Shown here: piece by piece, positions 4,700 through 57,154 of the stretch | Layout: the number at the start of each line of letters is the position of its first letter | Numbering within the stretch: the stretch's first letter is position 1 | From: Candidatus Fibrimonadaceae bacterium | GTDB lineage: Bacteria > Fibrobacterota > Fibrobacteria > Fibrobacterales > Fibrobacteraceae | Direction of reading: 5' to 3' | Assembly (NCBI GenBank): GCA_031281345.1 | Contig: JAITFN010000067.1 | Location: forward strand, 1 to 64,000 | Length of the DNA stretch: 64,000 bases | Notes under the pieces: model-generated | The model's input: only the letters and a program-made list of their open reading frames with translations | What the model was told of the DNA's origin: nothing | Databases searched by the model: none | Program-made: the position numbers and the translations under genes

Positions 4700-5968
4700 A
4701 TGAAGTTCAAAGCTATTCTGGTTATTTTTTCCTTGTTTCTCTCTTGTCAGGGACCTTGGAGCTATTACCCAGAAGACCCAGAAAACTACAAAGGAATATG
4801 GATTACCGCATACATAGTCTCTGGCAGGCCGGTGACAAACGTGTACCTTGAGAAAATGCACAACTTAAACGAAGTTTATATGCGAGGTTTTGCGTTCTAC
4901 GAATCGGCAAATATAGAAATAAAAGGCATTTTCAATGGGAGAGACACTTCATTTTTTTTAAAACCAGATACCGCTAATTTTGCTCACAACCCAAACAGCT
5001 TTGTAGGAGATGAAAATTTAATTCCAGAAGCGGGCGCAAGTTATGAGATGTATGTATCTGTAACTTGGGACAGTGCAGGCAAAAAAGTAACCAGCGAGTT
5101 CAGTGCGAAAACGCATATTCCAAAAAAATTCAAAATAAAAAGAGCTTACGATTTGCTGGGCGAACAATTCAAAGAAAAAGACACCATTATGTATTTACCT
5201 CCGCCTATGGATATGGGTTCAAATTATTTTATTCCAGAATACAGCAACGAAGATATTGGCGGTGCCTTTGTTTCAATGGTTTACGATACCAATGGGCTTT
5301 ATTGGGGTGAGAATTTTATGGATAATATAATAGAGCAGTTCGATTCCGATGGTATCGATACAGCACGACATGCAAGATTTGGAGATAGGCGCCTGATATA
5401 CACGGCAACCAATATGCAAGTAGCAAACATGAATAAAGACATAGACAGCATTCCTGTACTTGGTTTTATGATGCCGGCCATTGGGAATATCAAGTTGTTG
5501 TTTTATGCCACCACTCGCGAATACATGGATTACCGAAGTACCTTCCTGCAAGGATCCAGAGACAGCCGCATAAAACCTATTTACAATATTGAAGGCGGAG
5601 CAGGAATTTTTGCTGGAATGCTTGTTGATACCTTTGAGCTAAATTTAAAAACTACGCCAGATTTGAAAACGTATTCTTATGCAGAAGCTCAAAAGAGCTA
5701 TTGCATGCAAGAAGACGAGGAATATAATGTTAAAAACTGGAAAACTCATAGCCAGTGCTTGGCATTTTGGGAAAAAATCCCAACCAAGGATTATATGAAA
5801 GATTTAGTCTCTTGGTGTGAAATGCAGAATTTCCCATTGGACAAATACCCCGATTGTGGTTCGGCAATGGTACATTTCTATAATAGCGGTAAAAGATCTC
5901 CGGTATTAGAGAGAGAGGTGAAAAAATGGTGCGAAGAGCATAAAGACGACAAGGAGTGTCTCAGTTAA
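4700..5968 (+). CDS. Lipoprotein, DUF4249-like
   Basis: Signal peptide with Cys (LFLSCQG); overall resemblance only. Confidence 0.5.
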
Positions 5969-7176
5969 TGTCTCCTCTTGCCTTGCTCCGCATAGCTTTT
6001 AAAGCATTGCTCAGGAACAGAATGAGAACATTCCTCTCTGTGCTTGGCATTGTCATTGGCGTTGCTGCTGTTATAACTATGGTGGCCATAGGCGAGGGTA
6101 GCAAGCAGTCCATAAAAGAGCAAATTGGCAGCTTGGGTGCAAATATAGTTATAATTTCCCCGAATCCTCGCCAAACAAGCGGTGTGCGCATGGATGCTTC
6201 GGCAACACAGCTTTTAACTTTGAACGATGCCTATGCCTTGCGAAAAAAATCAAAATATTTAGTGGCCGTTTCACCGGTGATTGATGCGAGGGGGCAGGTG
6301 GTTGCCGCAGGTGGAAACTGGCCTAGCGGAATAACGGGGGTATGGGCTGAATATTTGCAAATTCGCGGCTACGAATTGGAAGACGGCGTCATGTTTGAAG
6401 GCGATGAAAATATGTCTAAGGTTTGCGTTATTGGAAAAACTGTTGCAGACAATCTTTTTCCGGCTGGCAATCCGGTGGGGCAAACAATTCGTTATAGAAA
6501 TATTCCTCTCAAGGTTATAGGGCTACTAAAAAGCAAAGGAACTTCTGGGTTTGGGCAAGACCAAGACGATGTTATTTTAGCTCCCTTTTCAGCAGTTCAA
6601 AAACGTATTTTGGCAACAACTAATGTTAGAACCATTTATGCTGGTGCTAGTGACGAGTATAGTGCGCCGCTTGCGGTTGAAGAAGCACAGGAAATTTTGA
6701 GCGAAGAGCATAAACTTCCTTATGATAGCGATGCCTTTCGCATTCAAACCCAGCAGGAACTTTTGGATATGGTTTCTAGTACGGCAAATCTTTTAACCGC
6801 TGTTTTAACCGCCATTGCAGGCATTAGCCTTTTGGTTGGCGGAATTGGGATTATGAATATAATGTATGTTTCGGTAACCGAGCGTACCCGTGAAATAGGT
6901 CTTAGAATGGCGATAGGGGCGAGAGGTTCTGATATTTTAATGCAGTTTTTGATTGAAGCGGTTCTCATAAGTTTAACCGGAGGTCTTGTTGGAATTATGT
7001 TTGGCGCTTTAGCTTCTTTTTTTGTTATGTATTTAGCAAACTGGCCTGTTACCGTCACCTTCTCTAGCATTGTAATCAGTTTTTCTGTTTGTTTTGCAAC
7101 AGGTGTTTTTTTTGGTTGGTACCCCGCCCGCAAAGCGGCTAGGCTAGACCCTATTGAGGCGCTAAGGTACGAATAG
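5956..7176 (+). CDS. MacB-like ABC transporter permease
   Basis: MacB/FtsX architecture: '[27 protein letters not shown]', '[28 protein letters not shown]', '[17 protein letters not shown]'. Confidence 0.92.
7143..7175 (+). repeat. 33-bp direct repeat, left copy (macB-like 3' end / ancestral uvrB 3' end)
   Basis: gctagaccctattgaggcgctaaggtacgaata; one mismatch to 9840..9872. Confidence 0.92.
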
Positions 7177-7242
7177 CCCTTTTGTCTGAACCAGAATTCT
7201 CAGAATTTTGGGAATTTTCAGAATAATACAATGATCCGTTTT

Positions 7243-7285
7243 GTAGGGGCAACCCTTGCGGTTGCCTCAAATGTGAAATGATTTG
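7243..7285 (+). repeat. Dispersed repeat family C
   Basis: Matches 742..785 (inverted) and 44561..44602. Confidence 0.75.
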
Positions 7286-7342
7286 CAATATTTTTGTATC
7301 TTACTAAGTAAATTTAATGTACTTTGGTGGAGAAAAGTCATT

Positions 7343-8545
7343 ATGAAAAACAGCCCCTCAAAACTCGCACTAATGGCAACCCTAACGCTTGCCTTGACAT
7401 TCACATTTTCTTGCTCTGGCGGTGATAATGGAGGCAATGACAATGGAGGTGGCAATGGTGGCAGCACCGAGCAAAGCTACAACTATTGCATTACGGCAGA
7501 CAATATCTGCCTAGTTGGTCCTTATACTGCCAGCATTTGCAGAGGTCAAGTGAGCAATAGCTGCCCCAACGGTTCAAGCCCAAGCGTGGGCGGCTCGTCT
7601 TCCTCTATCGGTGGCGTTTCTAGTTCGTCTGTTGCAAGTGTGGGTAGTTCCAGTTCCGTAACAAGCAGTTCAAGTCCCAACGATATCGGCGATTATTGCA
7701 ATTGGAATCCTGAAAATTGTGGTTATGATAGTTGTTGCTTCATTATTAGTGATAATGAAGAGCGTGAAATATGCCGTTTATATGCACAAATAGTTGTTAC
7801 TTGCCCGAAAGGTGGTTCTAGCTCGTCTATTGCAAATGTGAGTAGTTCCAGTTCCGTAAAAGCCAGTTCGTCTTCCTCTGTCGGTGGAGTTTCTAGCTCG
7901 TCTGTTGTACCAAATTCAAGTTCAGCGGTATATTCATCGTCAGGCACAAAGCTGAGTAGTTCTAGCATTGCCAGTGCTGGCGGTTCTTGCGATATAAAAG
8001 ATTACAGAATAGTTAAAATCGGCAATCAAACTTGGATGGCGGAGAATTTGAACTGCGATGTTGCGGGTAGTAAGTGCTATGATAATAACCCTGTCTATTG
8101 CGACAACACGTATGGTCGTCTTTACAACTGGGCAACGGCTATGACTGTTTGCCCTAGCGGTTGGCATTTACCGAGCCATGCGGAATGGGAAAAGCTGATA
8201 AGCTACGTTATGAGCGATAATAATTTTTCAGGGATAGGAAGAGTAGGGGAATATCTGAAAGCACAAAGTGGCTGGGCCTATAGCAACGACTACTACAATG
8301 TCTATGCTAACGGCAATGACAAGTACGGCTTTTCCGCCCTTCCGGGCGGCGCCTGCATTCCACCCTATACCGGCATGGGAAATGACTCTTTCCAACGAGT
8401 TGGCGAGTCCGGTGGCTGGTGGAGTACCTTAGAGTACAGTAGAGACGATGCTTACGCTAGGACCATGAGCAATACAAGCAGAGGCATCTACGAAGCAGAC
8501 TACCCCAAGAACCGCTTGCTCAGTGTTCGTTGTGTGCAGAATTAA
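7343..8545 (+). CDS. FISUMP-domain lipoprotein with serine-rich linkers
   Basis: Lipobox LTFTFSCSGG; SSSSS linkers; 'NQTWMAENLNCDVAGSKCYDNN...YGRLYNWATAMTVCPSGWHLPSHAEWEKL...SVRCVQN'. Confidence 0.93.
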   Translation: MKNSPSKLALMATLTLALTFTFSCSGGDNGGNDNGGGNGGSTEQSYNYCITADNICLVGPYTASICRGQVSNSCPNGSSPSVGGSSSSIGGVSSSSVASVGSSSSVTSSSSPNDIGDYCNWNPENCGYDSCCFIISDNEEREICRLYAQIVVTCPKGGSSSSIANVSSSSSVKASSSSSVGGVSSSSVVPNSSSAVYSSSGTKLSSSSIASAGGSCDIKDYRIVKIGNQTWMAENLNCDVAGSKCYDNNPVYCDNTYGRLYNWATAMTVCPSGWHLPSHAEWEKLISYVMSDNNFSGIGRVGEYLKAQSGWAYSNDYYNVYANGNDKYGFSALPGGACIPPYTGMGNDSFQRVGESGGWWSTLEYSRDDAYARTMSNTSRGIYEADYPKNRLLSVRCVQN

Positions 8546-8562
8546 AATAGGAGAGAACCAAA

Positions 8563-9030
8563 ATGAGCAACACTACCACAGCTTTGTCGTATGATAAAAT
8601 TTTCAACGAAATCGCCGAAGAATGTAGAGAAAAAGAAATATTCTCCAATTCGGAAGAAATAAAACCGAATAAAAAGAAACCGAGGTTTTGCAGACTTCAG
8701 CGAACGTCAATACATTACGAATTACAGCATTATGATTTAGCTGGTATGGTAGGCATAGAAATTCATATTGAGAAAAAAAGTTATGGCGAAAAAAATGATT
8801 ATTCGGCAAAAAAAGAAAAAGTAGAATTATTGCAGAGATACTTAAAATATTTAACAGATGTAAAAATTTTTGGCAAACAAATAATGTATGACCCTTGCTG
8901 GTATAACTGTGGGCGGATATATCTTTTATGCGATTATTCTATGGGCAAAGAAAAAATACTTTGTTACATAAATGAGTTTATTTACCAAACTAGGGAAAGA
9001 ATAAATATAATTGTCCCGAACTGGGATTAA
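8563..9030 (+). CDS. Hypothetical protein
   Basis: ORF with upstream 'aggagag'; no family recognised. Confidence 0.55.
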   Translation: MSNTTTALSYDKIFNEIAEECREKEIFSNSEEIKPNKKKPRFCRLQRTSIHYELQHYDLAGMVGIEIHIEKKSYGEKNDYSAKKEKVELLQRYLKYLTDVKIFGKQIMYDPCWYNCGRIYLLCDYSMGKEKILCYINEFIYQTRERINIIVPNWD

Positions 9031-9149
9031 GCCACCCCCCACAAATCGTGTCATTGTGTTGTTTAACGTGTGGGGTTGTCGTGCCACATTTGTATTATTC
9101 TGTAAACCCTGTAAATTCTGTGAATTCTGGTTCAGATAAGATAAATGCG

Positions 9150-9184
9150 AACCCCGTGCGTTTGTGTGTGGTTGTAGGTGTTTT
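9150..9184 (+). repeat. 35-bp repeat, copy 3
   Basis: AACCCCGTGCGTTTGTGTGTGGTTGTAGGTGTTTT; near-identical to copies 1 and 2. Confidence 0.88.
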
Positions 9185-9209
9185 TCTATATTTACTCCAA
9201 GAGGTATTT

Positions 9210-9422
9210 ATGTTAAGACAAGTTATGGTTCCAAGTAAAGAAAATTCCACTATCTCCATTCCTGCCGAATTTTACGGAACAGAGGTAGAAGTTTTAGTTT
9301 ATCCATTTTACAGCCAGCCAGCCAGCCAAAACTCCAATGACATAAATGACATATTTGACAAACATCTCTACTCATTTGGCAATTTCAAGTTCAACAGAAA
9401 CGATGCAAACAATTATGAATAG
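9210..9422 (+). CDS. Putative AbrB/VapB-like antitoxin
   Basis: Small ORF overlapping the start of a PIN-domain gene; N-terminus resembles 39297..39497. Confidence 0.6.
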   Translation: MLRQVMVPSKENSTISIPAEFYGTEVEVLVYPFYSQPASQNSNDINDIFDKHLYSFGNFKFNRNDANNYE

Positions 9423-9819
9423 AATTGCATTAGACAGCAACATTTTAATCTATAACCATAGCTTAGATTACGAAAATAAAAGGCTCATAGCCAGAGATTT
9501 TTTCAAAGAAAATCCTATTATATCCTCGCAAGTCATATCCGAATATATAAATGTAATGAAGCGAAATTTCAAAATGCAAAAACAGGAATTATTGTATTTA
9601 TGTTCTTTGTGGTTGGAAAAATGTTCCATTCAACCAGTAGTTTTATCCACAATAAAACTAGCTCAAAATTTAATCAACAGATACGATTTTCAAATATTTG
9701 ACGGAATTATAATTGCTGCTGCACTAGAAGCAAATTGCGACATTCTTTACAGCGAAGATATGCAAAATGGGCAAATAATAGAAAACACACTTAAAATTGT
9801 AAATCCCTTTGCTGATTGA
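9415..9819 (+). CDS. PIN-domain toxin (VapC-like)
   Basis: 'IALDSNILIYNHS..', 'QVISEYINVMKR', 'FDGIIIAAALEANCDILYSEDMQNG'. Confidence 0.85.
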   Translation: MNRIALDSNILIYNHSLDYENKRLIARDFFKENPIISSQVISEYINVMKRNFKMQKQELLYLCSLWLEKCSIQPVVLSTIKLAQNLINRYDFQIFDGIIIAAALEANCDILYSEDMQNGQIIENTLKIVNPFAD

Positions 9820-9824
9820 AAATT

Positions 9825-9839
9825 GTGGTTGTAGGTGTT
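9825..9839 (+). repeat. Partial copy (GTGGTTGTAGGTGTT) of the 35-bp repeat, copy 4
   Basis: Exact 15-bp match to the distal part of copies 1-3, abutting the 33-bp repeat. Confidence 0.8.
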
Positions 9840-9872
9840 GCTAGACCCTATTGAGGCACTAAGGTACGAATA
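9840..9872 (+). repeat. 33-bp direct repeat, right copy (current uvrB 3' end / relic macB-like 3' end)
   Basis: gctagaccctattgaggcactaaggtacgaata; one mismatch to 7143..7175. Confidence 0.92.
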
Positions 9873-11905
9873 ATATCCCTAATCCGTGCTGCTTCTTCAA
9901 AATCAAGGCGTGCTGCCGCCGCTTTCATCGCTTGGTCTAATTCCTCAATATTGTATGAACCCGAACCCTTGATCCGTTTTTCACCGATTTTTTTATTTTT
10001 GCCGTGAACATCCATTAAAGGATCTTGAATTTCCATTAAGTCTTCTAATTTTCTCTGCACATTTTTTGGGGTTATCTTATGTTGCCTATTGAATTCAATT
10101 TGCTTGTTCCTGCGGCGGTTTGTTTCCAAAATTGCTTTTTTCATAGAGTCGGTCATTTTGTCTGCATAGAGAATAACCCTGCCTTTCACATTTCTGCTCG
10201 CTCTGCCCATAGTTTGAATTAGGCTTTTGTAATTTCTTAAAAAACCTTCTTTGTCTGCATCCAAAACCGCAACCAAGGCTACTTCTGGCAAGTCCAAACC
10301 CTCACGCAAAAGATTTATACCAACCAAAACATCAAATTTTCCAATTCTTAGGTCGCGTATAATCTCGTGCCTGTCCAATGTTTTAATATCGCTGTGCAAA
10401 TATCTCGCTTTTACCTTTTTGTCCAGCAAAAAATCCGTTAAATCCTGTGCCATTTTTTTTGTAAGCGTTGTAACTAAAATTCTGTTTCCCTCTGAAACCG
10501 TTGCGGTTATGTGTGAGAGCAAGTCTTTCATTTGCCCTTCCACCGGCATAACGTCAATTTTTGGGTCTAGCAAACCTGTGGGGCGGTTTATTTGCTCAAC
10601 AATGTTTCCAGTTGTTTTTTTGAGTTCGTAATCCGCGGGCGTTGCACTCACAAAAAGTACGCTTTTTGGCATTTCATACTCAAACTCCGTGAAGTTCATG
10701 GGGCGGTTATCCAAGGCGCAAGGTAGCCGCCAGCCATATTCCACAAGGGTTGTTTTGCGAACCTTGTCGCCCTCGCTCATGGCACCCACCTGCGGAATGC
10801 TAGCGTGCGATTCGTCAATAATCATAAGCCAGTCTTTGCCAAAATAATCCAAAAGCGTGAAGGGTCTGGTGCCGGGTCTTCTGTTTTCTACAATTCGCGA
10901 GTAATTTTCTATCCCTGGGCAAATGCCTGTTTCTCTTATGAGCTCCATATCATAGCGGGCGCGGCTGTTTAAGCGAGCAGCTTCCAAATCTTTGCCCTCG
11001 GCTTGCAATTCGTACAATCTCATATCCAATTCTTTTTGAATTCTATTTATTATTCTATTTCTGCTTTCTTCTCTGGTTACAAAATGCTTTGCAGGAGCAA
11101 CAACTATTTCGCCAACTTCTTTTATGGTCTCGCCGGATACCAAATGGAACCAAGATAGTTTTTCTATTGTGTCACCAAAAAGTTCAACACGAAGTCCAAT
11201 ATCATCGTAGCTAGGGTAAATATCTATGCGGTCGCCTCGCACCCTGAATGTTCCGCGTTCCAAAGCATAGTCGTTGCGGTCGTATTGAATGGCAACCAAG
11301 TCTTTCAAAATTCCGTCTCTGTCCCGTTCTTCTCCAACTTTAAGGCGAACCATAAGTTCAAAATATTCCGCTGGGCTTCCCAAACCGTAAATGCAGCTAA
11401 CAGAAGCCACTATTATTGTATCTCTGCGAGTGAGCAAATTTTTTGTGGCACGGAGTCGCAATTTATCTATTTCATCGTTTATAGAGGCATCTTTGTCTAT
11501 AAAAATATCGCTAGACACAATATAGGCTTCGGGTTGGTAGTAGTCGTAATAGCTGACAAAATATTCAACTGCGTTTTCTGGAAAAAATGCTTTGAATTCG
11601 TGGTAGAGCTGTGCTGCGAGTGTTTTGTTGTGTGTTAAAATCAAAGTTGGCTTTGACAGATTTCTAATGACATTTGCCATTGTGAATGTTTTTCCGCTAC
11701 CTGTTACGCCCAAAAGAACTTGGAATTTTTCTCCGTCTTGGAAGGACTTGGTTATTGCCTCAATAGCCTGCGGTTGGTCGCCTGCTGGGGAGTAGGGACT
11801 TTTTAGCAAAAAAGGAGTAGGTTCGCTAGGGGGGCAAATGTTCAAATGCCCCGGCCGGCTTTCCTCCGGGTTTAAATGTGGTACGGATAATTTCGCGTGA
11901 GGCAT
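9848..11905 (-). CDS. uvrB: Excinuclease ABC subunit B
   Basis: 'GVTGSGKTFTMANVI', 'VSYYDYYQPEAYI', 'DESHASIPQVGAM', C-terminal UVR motif. Confidence 0.97.
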   Translation of the reverse strand: MPHAKLSVPHLNPEESRPGHLNICPPSEPTPFLLKSPYSPAGDQPQAIEAITKSFQDGEKFQVLLGVTGSGKTFTMANVIRNLSKPTLILTHNKTLAAQLYHEFKAFFPENAVEYFVSYYDYYQPEAYIVSSDIFIDKDASINDEIDKLRLRATKNLLTRRDTIIVASVSCIYGLGSPAEYFELMVRLKVGEERDRDGILKDLVAIQYDRNDYALERGTFRVRGDRIDIYPSYDDIGLRVELFGDTIEKLSWFHLVSGETIKEVGEIVVAPAKHFVTREESRNRIINRIQKELDMRLYELQAEGKDLEAARLNSRARYDMELIRETGICPGIENYSRIVENRRPGTRPFTLLDYFGKDWLMIIDESHASIPQVGAMSEGDKVRKTTLVEYGWRLPCALDNRPMNFTEFEYEMPKSVLFVSATPADYELKKTTGNIVEQINRPTGLLDPKIDVMPVEGQMKDLLSHITATVSEGNRILVTTLTKKMAQDLTDFLLDKKVKARYLHSDIKTLDRHEIIRDLRIGKFDVLVGINLLREGLDLPEVALVAVLDADKEGFLRNYKSLIQTMGRASRNVKGRVILYADKMTDSMKKAILETNRRRNKQIEFNRQHKITPKNVQRKLEDLMEIQDPLMDVHGKNKKIGEKRIKGSGSYNIEELDQAMKAAAARLDFEEAARIRDIIRTLVPQ

Positions 11906-11947
11906 CTGTTTTGCAATATAGTAAAAAGATTTTCTATATTCTCCCCT

Positions 11948-12547
11948 ATGACATTCGAACTCCCAAAATTGCCTTATGGGTTCAGCGACCTTGAACCTCA
12001 CTATGATTCTGCCACGGTGGAAATTCACTATTCAAAACATCACGCTACTTATGCGGCAAATTTGAACAAGGCTGTGGAAGCGGCTGGGTGGCAAGGCAAA
12101 AGCATAACGGAAATTTTAAATGGTTTGGATGCGGCTCCCGAACAGCAAAAGGCGGCTTTGAGAAATCACGGCGGTGGTTATCATAATCATTGCTTGTTTT
12201 GGGAATCGCTTTGCCCCAAAAGCACAGGCATAAATTCAGGAAAATTGGCAGATGCAATAAATGCAAAGTGGGGAAATTTTGAAAGTTTTGCCGAGGCATT
12301 TACCGCAAAAGCCTTAGGGCATTTTGGTTCCGGTTGGGCTTGGCTTGTGAAAAATAAAGCTGGCGAATTGGAAATTGTTGACACCCACGACCAAATTAGC
12401 CCCGTGAGCCTTGGGTTCAAACCCATAACCGTAATTGATGTTTGGGAACACGCTTATTATTTGAAATACAAAAATGTTCGCGCAGACTGGATCAAAGCTT
12501 GGTGGAATATAGTGGACTGGAAAAAAGCTGAAGAACGATATAATTAA
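11948..12547 (+). CDS. Superoxide dismutase (Fe/Mn type)
   Basis: 'LPYGFSDLEPHYDSATVEIHYSKHHATYAANLN', 'DVWEHAYYLKYKNVRADWI'. Confidence 0.93.
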   Translation: MTFELPKLPYGFSDLEPHYDSATVEIHYSKHHATYAANLNKAVEAAGWQGKSITEILNGLDAAPEQQKAALRNHGGGYHNHCLFWESLCPKSTGINSGKLADAINAKWGNFESFAEAFTAKALGHFGSGWAWLVKNKAGELEIVDTHDQISPVSLGFKPITVIDVWEHAYYLKYKNVRADWIKAWWNIVDWKKAEERYN

Positions 12548-26256: not shown

Positions 26257-26480
26257 ATGCTGATTACCAGAACAATAAAAAACGCCCATCTATAAAATCT
26301 CCACCAAGTGTCTGTTATCCTTATTTAACTCACAACCTCAATTTTATCCAATCAGCATTCCCCCCTTGAATGGAGATTTTTTAACAAAAATCACCATTTA
26401 TCCCCCCGTTTTTTCCGCTCGGAGAGCTAACGGGGGGAACGCCACAGTGAGATTCAGAATTAATCAGTGGCTACTATATA
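26257..26480 (+). repeat. Dispersed repeat family A (MITE-like), copy with an internal extra ~60 bp near the left end
   Basis: atgctgatta...ccccccttgaatggagattttttaacaaaaatcaccatt...ccgctcggagagctaacggggggaacgcc...aatcagtggctac. Confidence 0.85.
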
Positions 26481-34256: not shown

Positions 34257-34425
34257 AATGCTGATTAACTCATAATCTCAATTTTATCCAATCAGCATTT
34301 CCCCCCTTGAATGGAGATTTTTTAACAAAAATCACCATTCGTCCCCCCGTTTTTTCCGCTCGGAGAGCTAACGGGGGGGAACGCCACAGCGAGATTCAGA
34401 TTTAATCAGTGGCTACTATAGAAAA
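34257..34425 (+). repeat. Dispersed repeat family A (MITE-like), full copy with short terminal inverted repeats (CTGATTAA/TTAATCAG)
   Basis: Same sequence as 26257..26480; GC-rich hairpin CCCCCGTT...AACGGGGG inside. Confidence 0.88.
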
Positions 34426-34445
34426 AACAGGAAAATAGTGAAAGC

Positions 34446-55900: not shown

Positions 55901-56109
55901 ACAAAAGCCCCTACACCGCTTTCAATAGCACAATCAAGATTCCTGGTTTTGCTGGAAAAGCAAAGGTGGAGGTTTTGGCTACTCCAAAAGGGCAAGCAGC
56001 AGGCAAAGTTGTTAAAGTTGACCCGCCAAAAGCGAGCAGTCAAGAGATAAAAGAGGGTGCTGCGATAACATTCCCCGCGCATTCCATAACATTGATTACC
56101 ATTGAATAG
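52990..56109 (+). CDS. Cellulase, GH51 catalytic domain with N-terminal CBM-like repeats (resembles F. succinogenes Cel51A/EGF)
   Basis: Signal peptide; two CBM11/30-like repeats; 'VRYPGGLRADD', 'YWEIGNEIYGDW' acid/base, 'IWLTEWNSVD' nucleophile. Confidence 0.8.
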   Translation: MIRRIALFLFLALATVAFAQRPNRIVVFKFFDGQYRTGGFDYSYGGKSKVEIDKTQGYKSAASLRFALDPSDYSGSSICLYNEVSDLSKVLLDGAVEFDIKGAVGGEQAWFGFLDSDGKGKKTQSKLSLNKYVQITKDWQHVKIPLADFPDRGMYWDDTKKTELPDRINWDKIAEFRVSVDKGTNPQGFQVWVANVEVVKGTVPVAKPKPKIVYWDEKTETIEGPKNPEKLDGKAKALQPNGVFYAGNLKGFGYVYGGLTAFKEQPSKTPNRNVLAAYMDDNEYSGVTLSLGEGKYIDLSKVRNKGGVYFWAKGKQGGEKVGFGILDNQGGDIKSQTKTNLQDWVEGQTLSKDWKLVKIPLKKFQDAGKAWDANKQAEVTKNIQWNKIQEVRFSVGKADNKRDGRQDDPVTIYVDQITFTENIDWVDPDLKWDSFKSNAPDLVLHDFENNPGFEPSTGPKSKVSFDISKGHLDGKSLNVSHYMLGDWVDIVYDFEKQKAKKELTDWTKHWGIMFDIYTDKAWQGITVQIGDKGREIFVSSTGAPRGRSTVLVSFRSFTKFPYYQPPEAVQNGTFDLDGVKVLDFKPSGEGSEGSFQIDNVRLTNLREVPRPKVPESASLTITGDLNKVINPNISSAIFGINAALWDGDLLKPETKKYVKRINHGVVRYPGGLRADDDHWKKILEAKDWMVDTDEFLEWCKETGTTPMFTANFGTGTAEEAADWVKHTNITKKANVIYWEIGNEIYGDWHPQYAKYGADKGHTYGKRAREFITAMKKVDPKIKVGVLGVLDGEWNENVLKYTADVADALIIHHYPQHFGEENDFGLLASPQTLDKIFGRVRESIKKLSPKKDIEIWLTEWNSVDFNPGPQSISLINGLFVADYLGTLAKVGAGSAQYWDIHNDITPEGGDYGYLSRSYEEIIGGNKPRPSYYAFQMAADGIRGKLVESNSGSTDLTTYLSVNGKKKTLLAINKSPYTAFNSTIKIPGFAGKAKVEVLATPKGQAAGKVVKVDPPKASSQEIKEGAAITFPAHSITLITIE

Positions 56110-56131
56110 AAAATAAGGATAATTGCAGTGC

Positions 56132-57154
56132 TCAAAAGCCTGCAATTGTCCAATCTAATTTACCTTGTTCCGTTTGAGAACGACCGCGTTTGTAAAGCAA
56201 TTCGCCAAGAGCTAGTTTAATTGCATTTCTCTCTAAGAACCCTTCAAAATTTGAAAGAATGCTAAATGTCTCTTGTGCCTTTGCTTCAAATTTAAGAGGT
56301 GGTATATTTGCATCGCTCCAAGCAATGGTCAAATTTTTTGGAAAGTTTTTGGGATTATAGGTTTTTTCATTTTCAAGCACAGAAGCAGGATAAATGATTT
56401 TAGATACACCTTCTACGTTATGAATTGAATAGCCATAAGGAGTGCCGTTTTTGGTTATTCCTATGCGCCCTGCTATAAATGATTTTTGCTGTGGCATACT
56501 GAGCGTGAGCATTCTGGTTGCCATTTCAGCGGGTTTTTCGTTTTGCCAAACGTGATCCATATAGCCATATCCGCTTATTTCCACAGTATCTTCTCCAATA
56601 CCCACGCGGCCTTTAATTCTGCCATAAGGAATGTGCACATACAAACCGAATTTGTTTCCGTCTATATTGAACACGCCATCTCCTTGAACAACACCGTTCA
56701 CAGCACTTGTAAATGAGACATCTAAGAATTTTTTGCCATTTTTATTAGCAGAAAACAACACGCGGTGCCCTGTGCCGGGTAATTTTTCCATTAAATAATC
56801 GCCACCAGCAATAGAAATGCTGTTTGTGCTTTTATCTTCAACAAATCTATCCGTTGAATATTGCCGCCCCACGCTATGGCTTTTGCCTTTGAAATTCCAT
56901 ATTGAAAAATCGGTGCCTATTTTAAAACCCTGAGTTGGAACATACATCCAAGTATAATTCACATATATTTTTGTACCATTGTCAAGTACAAAAACATAGC
57001 TCCACATTTCGTTGTATTTATCGCTTTTTTGTGGATGCCTAAAGAAATCGGCTGCATTGGTTTTTCTTTCTTCACCAGCAGGGTTGTTAATAGCAGATAT
57101 GCCAAGCGATGCGAGGCATAAGAGGATAAGCGCGATTTTGGGTAGTTTTGTCAT
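56132..57154 (-). CDS. Secreted lipocalin-like (CrtC/Svf1-type) protein
   Basis: Signal peptide; 'ISGYGYMDHVWQN'. Confidence 0.6.
   Translation of the reverse strand: MTKLPKIALILLCLASLGISAINNPAGEERKTNAADFFRHPQKSDKYNEMWSYVFVLDNGTKIYVNYTWMYVPTQGFKIGTDFSIWNFKGKSHSVGRQYSTDRFVEDKSTNSISIAGGDYLMEKLPGTGHRVLFSANKNGKKFLDVSFTSAVNGVVQGDGVFNIDGNKFGLYVHIPYGRIKGRVGIGEDTVEISGYGYMDHVWQNEKPAEMATRMLTLSMPQQKSFIAGRIGITKNGTPYGYSIHNVEGVSKIIYPASVLENEKTYNPKNFPKNLTIAWSDANIPPLKFEAKAQETFSILSNFEGFLERNAIKLALGELLYKRGRSQTEQGKLDWTIAGF

Follow-up and report, generated by a model that had tools for sequence, protein, structure and literature searches.

The macB/uvrB junction and its direct repeats

We analysed a 64,000-nucleotide stretch of a Candidatus Fibrimonadaceae bacterium of the termite-gut Fibromonas type (positions 1 to 64,000 of contig JAITFN010000067.1; hereafter the window), which is contig C32 of a 2.56-Mb, 84% complete genome, G000, and which carries an accessory segment of 2664 base pairs (bp) between a macB-like gene and uvrB. 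The genome was compared with 12 further species of the genus (G001-G012), the nearest being G008, and the genomes were compared through sampled stretches. By macB, the closest named relatives are Fibrobacterota genomes, e.g. 'Fibrobacteria bacterium GUT31' and Candidatus Fibrimonadaceae; the Fibromonas group of the termite gut has been described (PMC4704652).

The macB-like gene (5956-7176, + strand) encodes an ABC-transporter permease with MacB_PCD and FtsX domains (PF12704, E 5e-45; PF02687, E 7e-20) that has 95.5% amino-acid identity to its G008 counterpart, and uvrB (9848-12028, - strand; PF17757 and PF12344) has 94.6%. Both genes end in a copy of a 33-bp direct repeat, GCTAGACCCTATTGAGGCGCTAAGGTACGAATA at 7143-7175 and ...GCACTAAGG... 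at 9840-9872, the copies being identical at 32 of 33 positions (one mismatch) and spaced by 2697 bp. The left copy functions as the 3' end of macB, its + strand encoding the macB tail, and the right copy functions as the 3' end of uvrB, its - strand encoding the tail RTLVPQ followed by the stop. The macB stop codon is TAG, the last base of which is supplied by the first base of the inserted DNA (GAATA/G, where the slash marks the junction); because the stop is completed in this way, the cassette was delimited as 7176-9839 (2664 bp).

The random expectation for such a repeat pair in 64 kb is ~9e-9, so that a chance origin (expectation ~1e-8) was ruled out. The 33-mer occurs in the 84% complete G000 genome in just two copies, both at the edges of the cassette, which rules out a dispersed repeat, and no copy of the 33-bp core was found in the viral contigs searched. 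A k-mer assembly artefact is an unlikely source of the repeat, as a single base distinguishes the copies and each has its own flanks.

A syntenic empty site in the sister species

In the sister species G008, macB and uvrB are convergent and overlap by 26 bp (uvrB ends at L093 8719 and macB, on the opposite strand, at 8694), the 33 bp are present in a single copy, the cassette is absent and the macB stop codon is TAA. The gene order ligA - sod - uvrB - macB - DUF4249 protein - DnaG-like gene is common to G008:C31 and the window, with the exception that G008 has one extra gene between the DUF4249 protein and the DnaG-like gene. In the alignment of the window to G008 there is a jump from 7175 to 9840, while G008:C31 is continuous across the site with a gap of -33 bp, the two aligned blocks sharing 33 bp of G008. 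Because G008 has a syntenic empty site with one copy, this comparison securely shows that the segment was inserted with duplication of the shared macB/uvrB end and that both genes were left whole. A first-pass annotation of the window had placed the 33-bp repeats and their single mismatch at exactly these coordinates, and had proposed that a cassette entered between convergent, overlapping macB and uvrB genes, duplicating their shared end and leaving both proteins intact. The single-copy G008 site supports this proposal, and the overlap with one copy that it predicted for relatives having the same genes is what G008 has.

The direction of the change is less direct. In the other members of the genus for which the uvrB locus was read, macB is not its neighbour, and consequently there is no deeper empty site for comparison. 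Both window copies share two base states that differ from G008 (TAGACCC in place of TGGATCC); these were considered as a means of dating the insertion after the split of G000 and G008, and this dating was withdrawn because the same states are present in the outgroups L113 and L115 and are therefore ancestral. An insertion that predates the split, with later loss in G008 by recombination between the 33-bp repeats, is compatible with these ancestral states. However, it would require an additional precise deletion, and the two copies differ at 1 of 33 positions while the species differ at ~0.25-0.28 of fourfold sites; we regard it as unlikely. Insertion in the G000 line would be a simpler account than one in which G008 first gained the segment and then lost it exactly, and an earlier insertion would alter only the polarity of the event, not its existence.

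Content and repeat structure of the cassette

The inserted segment (7176-9839), which is missing from G008 at this site, contains four genes, all on the + strand. The first encodes a lipoprotein with a FISUMP domain (7343-8545; PF09603, E 1e-27; TIGR02145, E 7e-45) and the second a 155-amino-acid protein (8563-9030) with no match in Pfam, NCBIfam, PADLOC or PHROGs. They are followed by a VapBC-like pair, consisting of a putative antitoxin of 70 amino acids (9210-9422) and a PIN-domain, VapC-like toxin (9415-9819; PF01850, E 5e-10) whose homologues in G004, G005 and G011 are 76-82% identical in amino acids. The antitoxin has no family match and is assigned by its position, its overlap with the toxin gene and its conservation next to the toxin in the same three species. 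Of the VapBC-like pair named in the first-pass annotation, the toxin is thus backed by its domain and the antitoxin by position; that annotation's statement that the cassette lacks an integrase was borne out, since the cassette proteins gave no recombinase or transposase among their Pfam, NCBIfam, PADLOC and PHROGs matches. A phage, plasmid or viral origin of the segment was rejected, as there were no matches, and Rfam gave no match above any family threshold. Elsewhere, at L094 1398-1465 (G008:C50), the last 68 bp of a vapC gene are 96% identical to the vapC of the window while the whole protein is only ~45% identical, i.e. this is a mosaic toxin gene.

Dispersed intergenic repeats run through the whole segment. 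A 50-nucleotide inverted repeat (84%), with its left arm at 7182-7231 (- strand) and its right arm at 9090-9139 (+ strand), surrounds the first two genes, and its left arm represents a dispersed intergenic repeat (...GGTTCAGACAA) that has more copies in G000 and G008. A second dispersed repeat, RPT-A (ATAAATGCGAACC..GTGGTTGTAGGTGTT), lies at 9140-9182 (+ strand) and has ~20 copies in the sampled DNA. The 16-bp direct repeat TGTGGTTGTAGGTGTT, found at 9167-9182 and 9824-9839, corresponds to the last 16 bases of RPT-A (...GTGGTTGTAGGTGTT); the second of these, an RPT-A end fragment on the + strand, closes the segment and touches the right 33-bp copy directly. At 811-1468 of the window a small two-gene unit, apparently toxin-antitoxin (TA), lies between two full RPT-A copies (GGTGGTTGTAGGTGTT) spaced by 643 bp. 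Integron gene cassettes are comparable in being promoter-poor and TA-rich, each with a repeat, whereas here the repeats are dispersed rather than arrayed and there is a 33-bp target duplication, which integron insertion is not known to make.

Tests for a dedicated recombinase

The restoration of both gene ends raises the alternative that a tyrosine (or other) recombinase, supplied in trans, integrated the cassette site-specifically; the shared gene end would then be attB and the 33 bp the att core. Genomic islands and integrative and mobilizable elements that enter at the 3' end of a gene duplicate and restore that end, and the present locus resembles them in its duplicated, restored gene end and in the empty site of a relative; G000 also has eight tyrosine recombinase genes elsewhere. 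However, the cassette itself encodes no recombinase, and the best dyad within the 33 bp is no better than those of shuffled sequences (P ~0.5). The similarity of the 33 bp to dif is at most 12 of 28 positions, the reference being the E. coli dif, which may differ from that of the host. No second occupied or attP-like copy was found in the genome or the viral contigs, and other cassettes have unrelated repeats and other duplication lengths. The locus further differs from islands in that one duplicated piece supplies the ends of both convergent genes. The likeness suggested in the first-pass annotation, to site-specific integration into the 3' end of a gene, was therefore not upheld, and we consider integration by a recombinase in trans to be quite unlikely.

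The dif modules (pdif) of Acinetobacter, which are moved by the host XerCD, are likewise short recombinase-free cassettes, very often carrying TA pairs, that are bounded by short repeats (PMC13141974). The pdif sites all belong to a single conserved family of 28 bp and are inversely oriented, whereas the repeats here are direct, unrelated in sequence and length, and without resemblance to dif.

Duplications at other insertions

The window differs from its G008 counterparts by ~10 insertions or deletions (indels). Two are short elements resembling miniature inverted-repeat transposable elements (MITE-like) with 8-9-bp duplications, and those that bear genes have either no duplication or one of 8-14 bp, a duplication of more than 20 bp being found only at the macB/uvrB cassette. 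This survey rules out one fixed duplication length for all gene insertions between the window and G008. When 0.93 Mb of G000 and G008 were scanned for isolated direct repeats, further duplications of gene ends or gene starts around cassettes came to light, one of 58 bp beside a dnaA-like gene and others of 115 and 194 bp; overall, the duplications at other gene insertions in the two genomes measured 0, 8-14, 40, 58, 115 and 194 bp. As these lengths differ so widely, gene insertion in the two genomes does not go with any fixed duplication length.

Three of the candidates were not accepted as parallel cases. A VapBC locus at rsmG (L100) was first read as a duplicated gene end, but the repeat at its borders is a dispersed one that is present elsewhere in G008, and the 115-bp case (L209) is without a clean empty site. 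The dnaA-like gene of G008:C50 has a near-empty counterpart in G000:C58, but its repeat recurs after other lipoprotein genes: at L215 1963-3550 (G008:C50) and L297 (G000:C58), the 3' tail of the dnaA-like gene is found again after the lipoprotein genes that follow. At this locus G008 has two additional lipoprotein genes, together with a leftover piece of the 3' end of the dnaA-like gene.

Repeat-flanked VapC-type loci across the genus

VapC homologues from the genus were chosen on sequence alone, and a locus counted as flanked if isolated direct repeats lay directly around it within 3 kb; the VapC segments used for scoring span only 1.5 kb per side, so that the macB/uvrB locus was itself scored as negative. 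Direct flanking repeats are enriched at VapC loci, being present at 7 of 11 scorable VapC-type loci and at 0 of 41 core-gene control loci (Fisher P 2.5e-6), the controls being imperfectly matched as core genes sit in repeat-poor DNA. The background, measured on open reading frames (ORFs) of 110-320 amino acids in G000 and G008, was 14 of 311, and when L100, which had been found by the repeat scan, was left out, 6 of 10 VapC loci remained flanked (P 4.8e-6 against the ORF background). The repeats around these homologous loci differ in sequence and range in length from 27 to 94 bp.

In G005:C90 (L096 3117-4206), a close VapBC homologue lies between prfA and a peptidase gene, inside a perfect 32-bp direct repeat; the repeat contains the codon at which the downstream peptidase gene starts, and it encloses a second repeat, of 49 bp. 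No empty site was found for this locus, G004, G007 and G009 carrying a different gene there. In G011:C87 (L372 1454/2862), perfect 86-bp direct repeats surround a VapBC-like pair, and the right copy lies in the apparent start of a serine-recombinase gene.

A model for the insertion

The insertion is shown by the empty site; how the DNA was joined, which way the locus changed and what part selection played are inferences. In the ancestor, macB and uvrB were convergent with a 26-bp overlap, which the 2664-bp segment, with its lipoprotein gene, 155-amino-acid protein gene and VapBC-like pair amid dispersed intergenic repeats, entered with duplication of 33 bp of target, leaving macB to be ended by the left copy and uvrB by the right copy. 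The joining most probably required no dedicated recombinase and could have occurred in one of two ways: (a) a circle carrying a short piece of the target could have integrated by a single crossover, or (b) the segment could have been attached by illegitimate joining, either where a break was staggered or through a template switch. Either route would give a duplication of variable length around the insert, and we favour a recombinase-independent origin because repeat lengths vary and the repeat sequences are unrelated. Selection would then have retained this insertion since both genes survive, whereas a duplication shorter than ~25 bp would have left macB or uvrB truncated. Selection alone is enough to account for two intact gene ends: at least ~25 of the 26 overlap bases must be covered, and the duplication comprises 25 of them and a further 8 bases.

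An E. coli assay gave mainly single-crossover integration, with partial duplications of the target, 109-950 bp long, on the flanks (PMC3240628), and illegitimate joining can also yield flanking duplications. The present locus resembles such homology-facilitated illegitimate recombination and single-crossover events in having an insert between partial target duplications of variable length; those events involved plasmid or linear DNA with long homology, whereas only 33 bp are available here. Recombinase-independent duplicative insertion, by single crossover of a circle or by illegitimate joining, and kept by selection, is on balance the probable explanation.

Several observations weigh against it. 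No circular intermediate with the 33 bp was seen. The last 40 codons of macB are those most diverged from G008 (0.38 at third positions, as against ~0.20). An inverted match of 12 of 14 bases is set back from the two cassette ends by 13 and 9 bp (shuffle P = 0.003), although the ends themselves do not match. Finally, the perfect 32-bp repeat in G005 is nearly equal in length to the 33 bp here, which could mean that a specific enzyme makes duplications of ~32-33 bp.

The raised divergence of the macB 3' end would be expected if a donor with macB (or uvrB) beside the cassette had recombined by homology at one end and been joined illegitimately 33 bp back at the other, one 33-bp copy then being the donor allele. 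The left copy does differ from both the right copy and G008 in having GCG rather than GCA, and TAG rather than TAA, and the relative GUT31 (L113) has GCG and TAG. However, the outgroup comparison did not mark the G000 tail as foreign; most of the states in the macB tail that are unusual relative to outgroups belong to G008, and a foreign macB tail was rejected as having the wrong polarity. No relative was found with the cassette beside macB, L113-L115 having other neighbours, and we judge such a homology-facilitated origin improbable.

The 12-of-14 inverted match and the near-equal repeats around homologous VapBC pairs in G005 and here would instead fit a transposase acting in trans and making long target duplications (~32-33 bp) around VapBC cassettes, as in the IS1202 group of insertion sequences, whose duplications measure 16-28 bp (PMC10132070). 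The long duplication is the point of likeness; the known examples reach only 28 bp, the very ends of the present cassette lack terminal inverted repeats, and it has no transposase. Moreover, the G005 and macB/uvrB cassettes have vapBC in common but not their ends, other VapC loci have repeats of 27-94 bp, and no empty site was found in G005, all of which makes transposition of this kind very unlikely. A broader proposal, which we regard as doubtful, is that Fibromonas-type genomes host a recombinase-free mobility of TA cassettes, with direct duplications of ~32-33 bp (or of variable length) at gene boundaries, driven by a trans-acting enzyme or a circle-based homologous route, as yet undescribed.

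The two sister species provide a clean before-and-after pair for an insertion into the overlap of convergent genes with a duplication that spares both, and indicate that tightly packed gene ends can still take up foreign DNA. Taken with the repeat-flanked VapC loci of the genus, the movement of small recombinase-free TA cassettes becomes testable by strain comparison.

Other small insertions

Copies of the MITE-like element (AATGCTGATTAA...CCCCCCGTTTTTTCCGCTCGG...) lie at 26258-26472 and 34258-34429 of the window; they are absent from G008 and have target duplications of ~8-9 bp. Opposite window 56108-56132, G008 (L093 2226-2937) has a small HigBA-like pair beside a 14-bp tandem copy of the last bases of the upstream gene. 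At L213 2113/3730 (G008:C50), a 60-amino-acid ORF next to a gene for a PIN-like toxin is present on both sides of an AAA-ATPase gene as a 194-bp duplication, and the ATPase is absent from G000 at that position.

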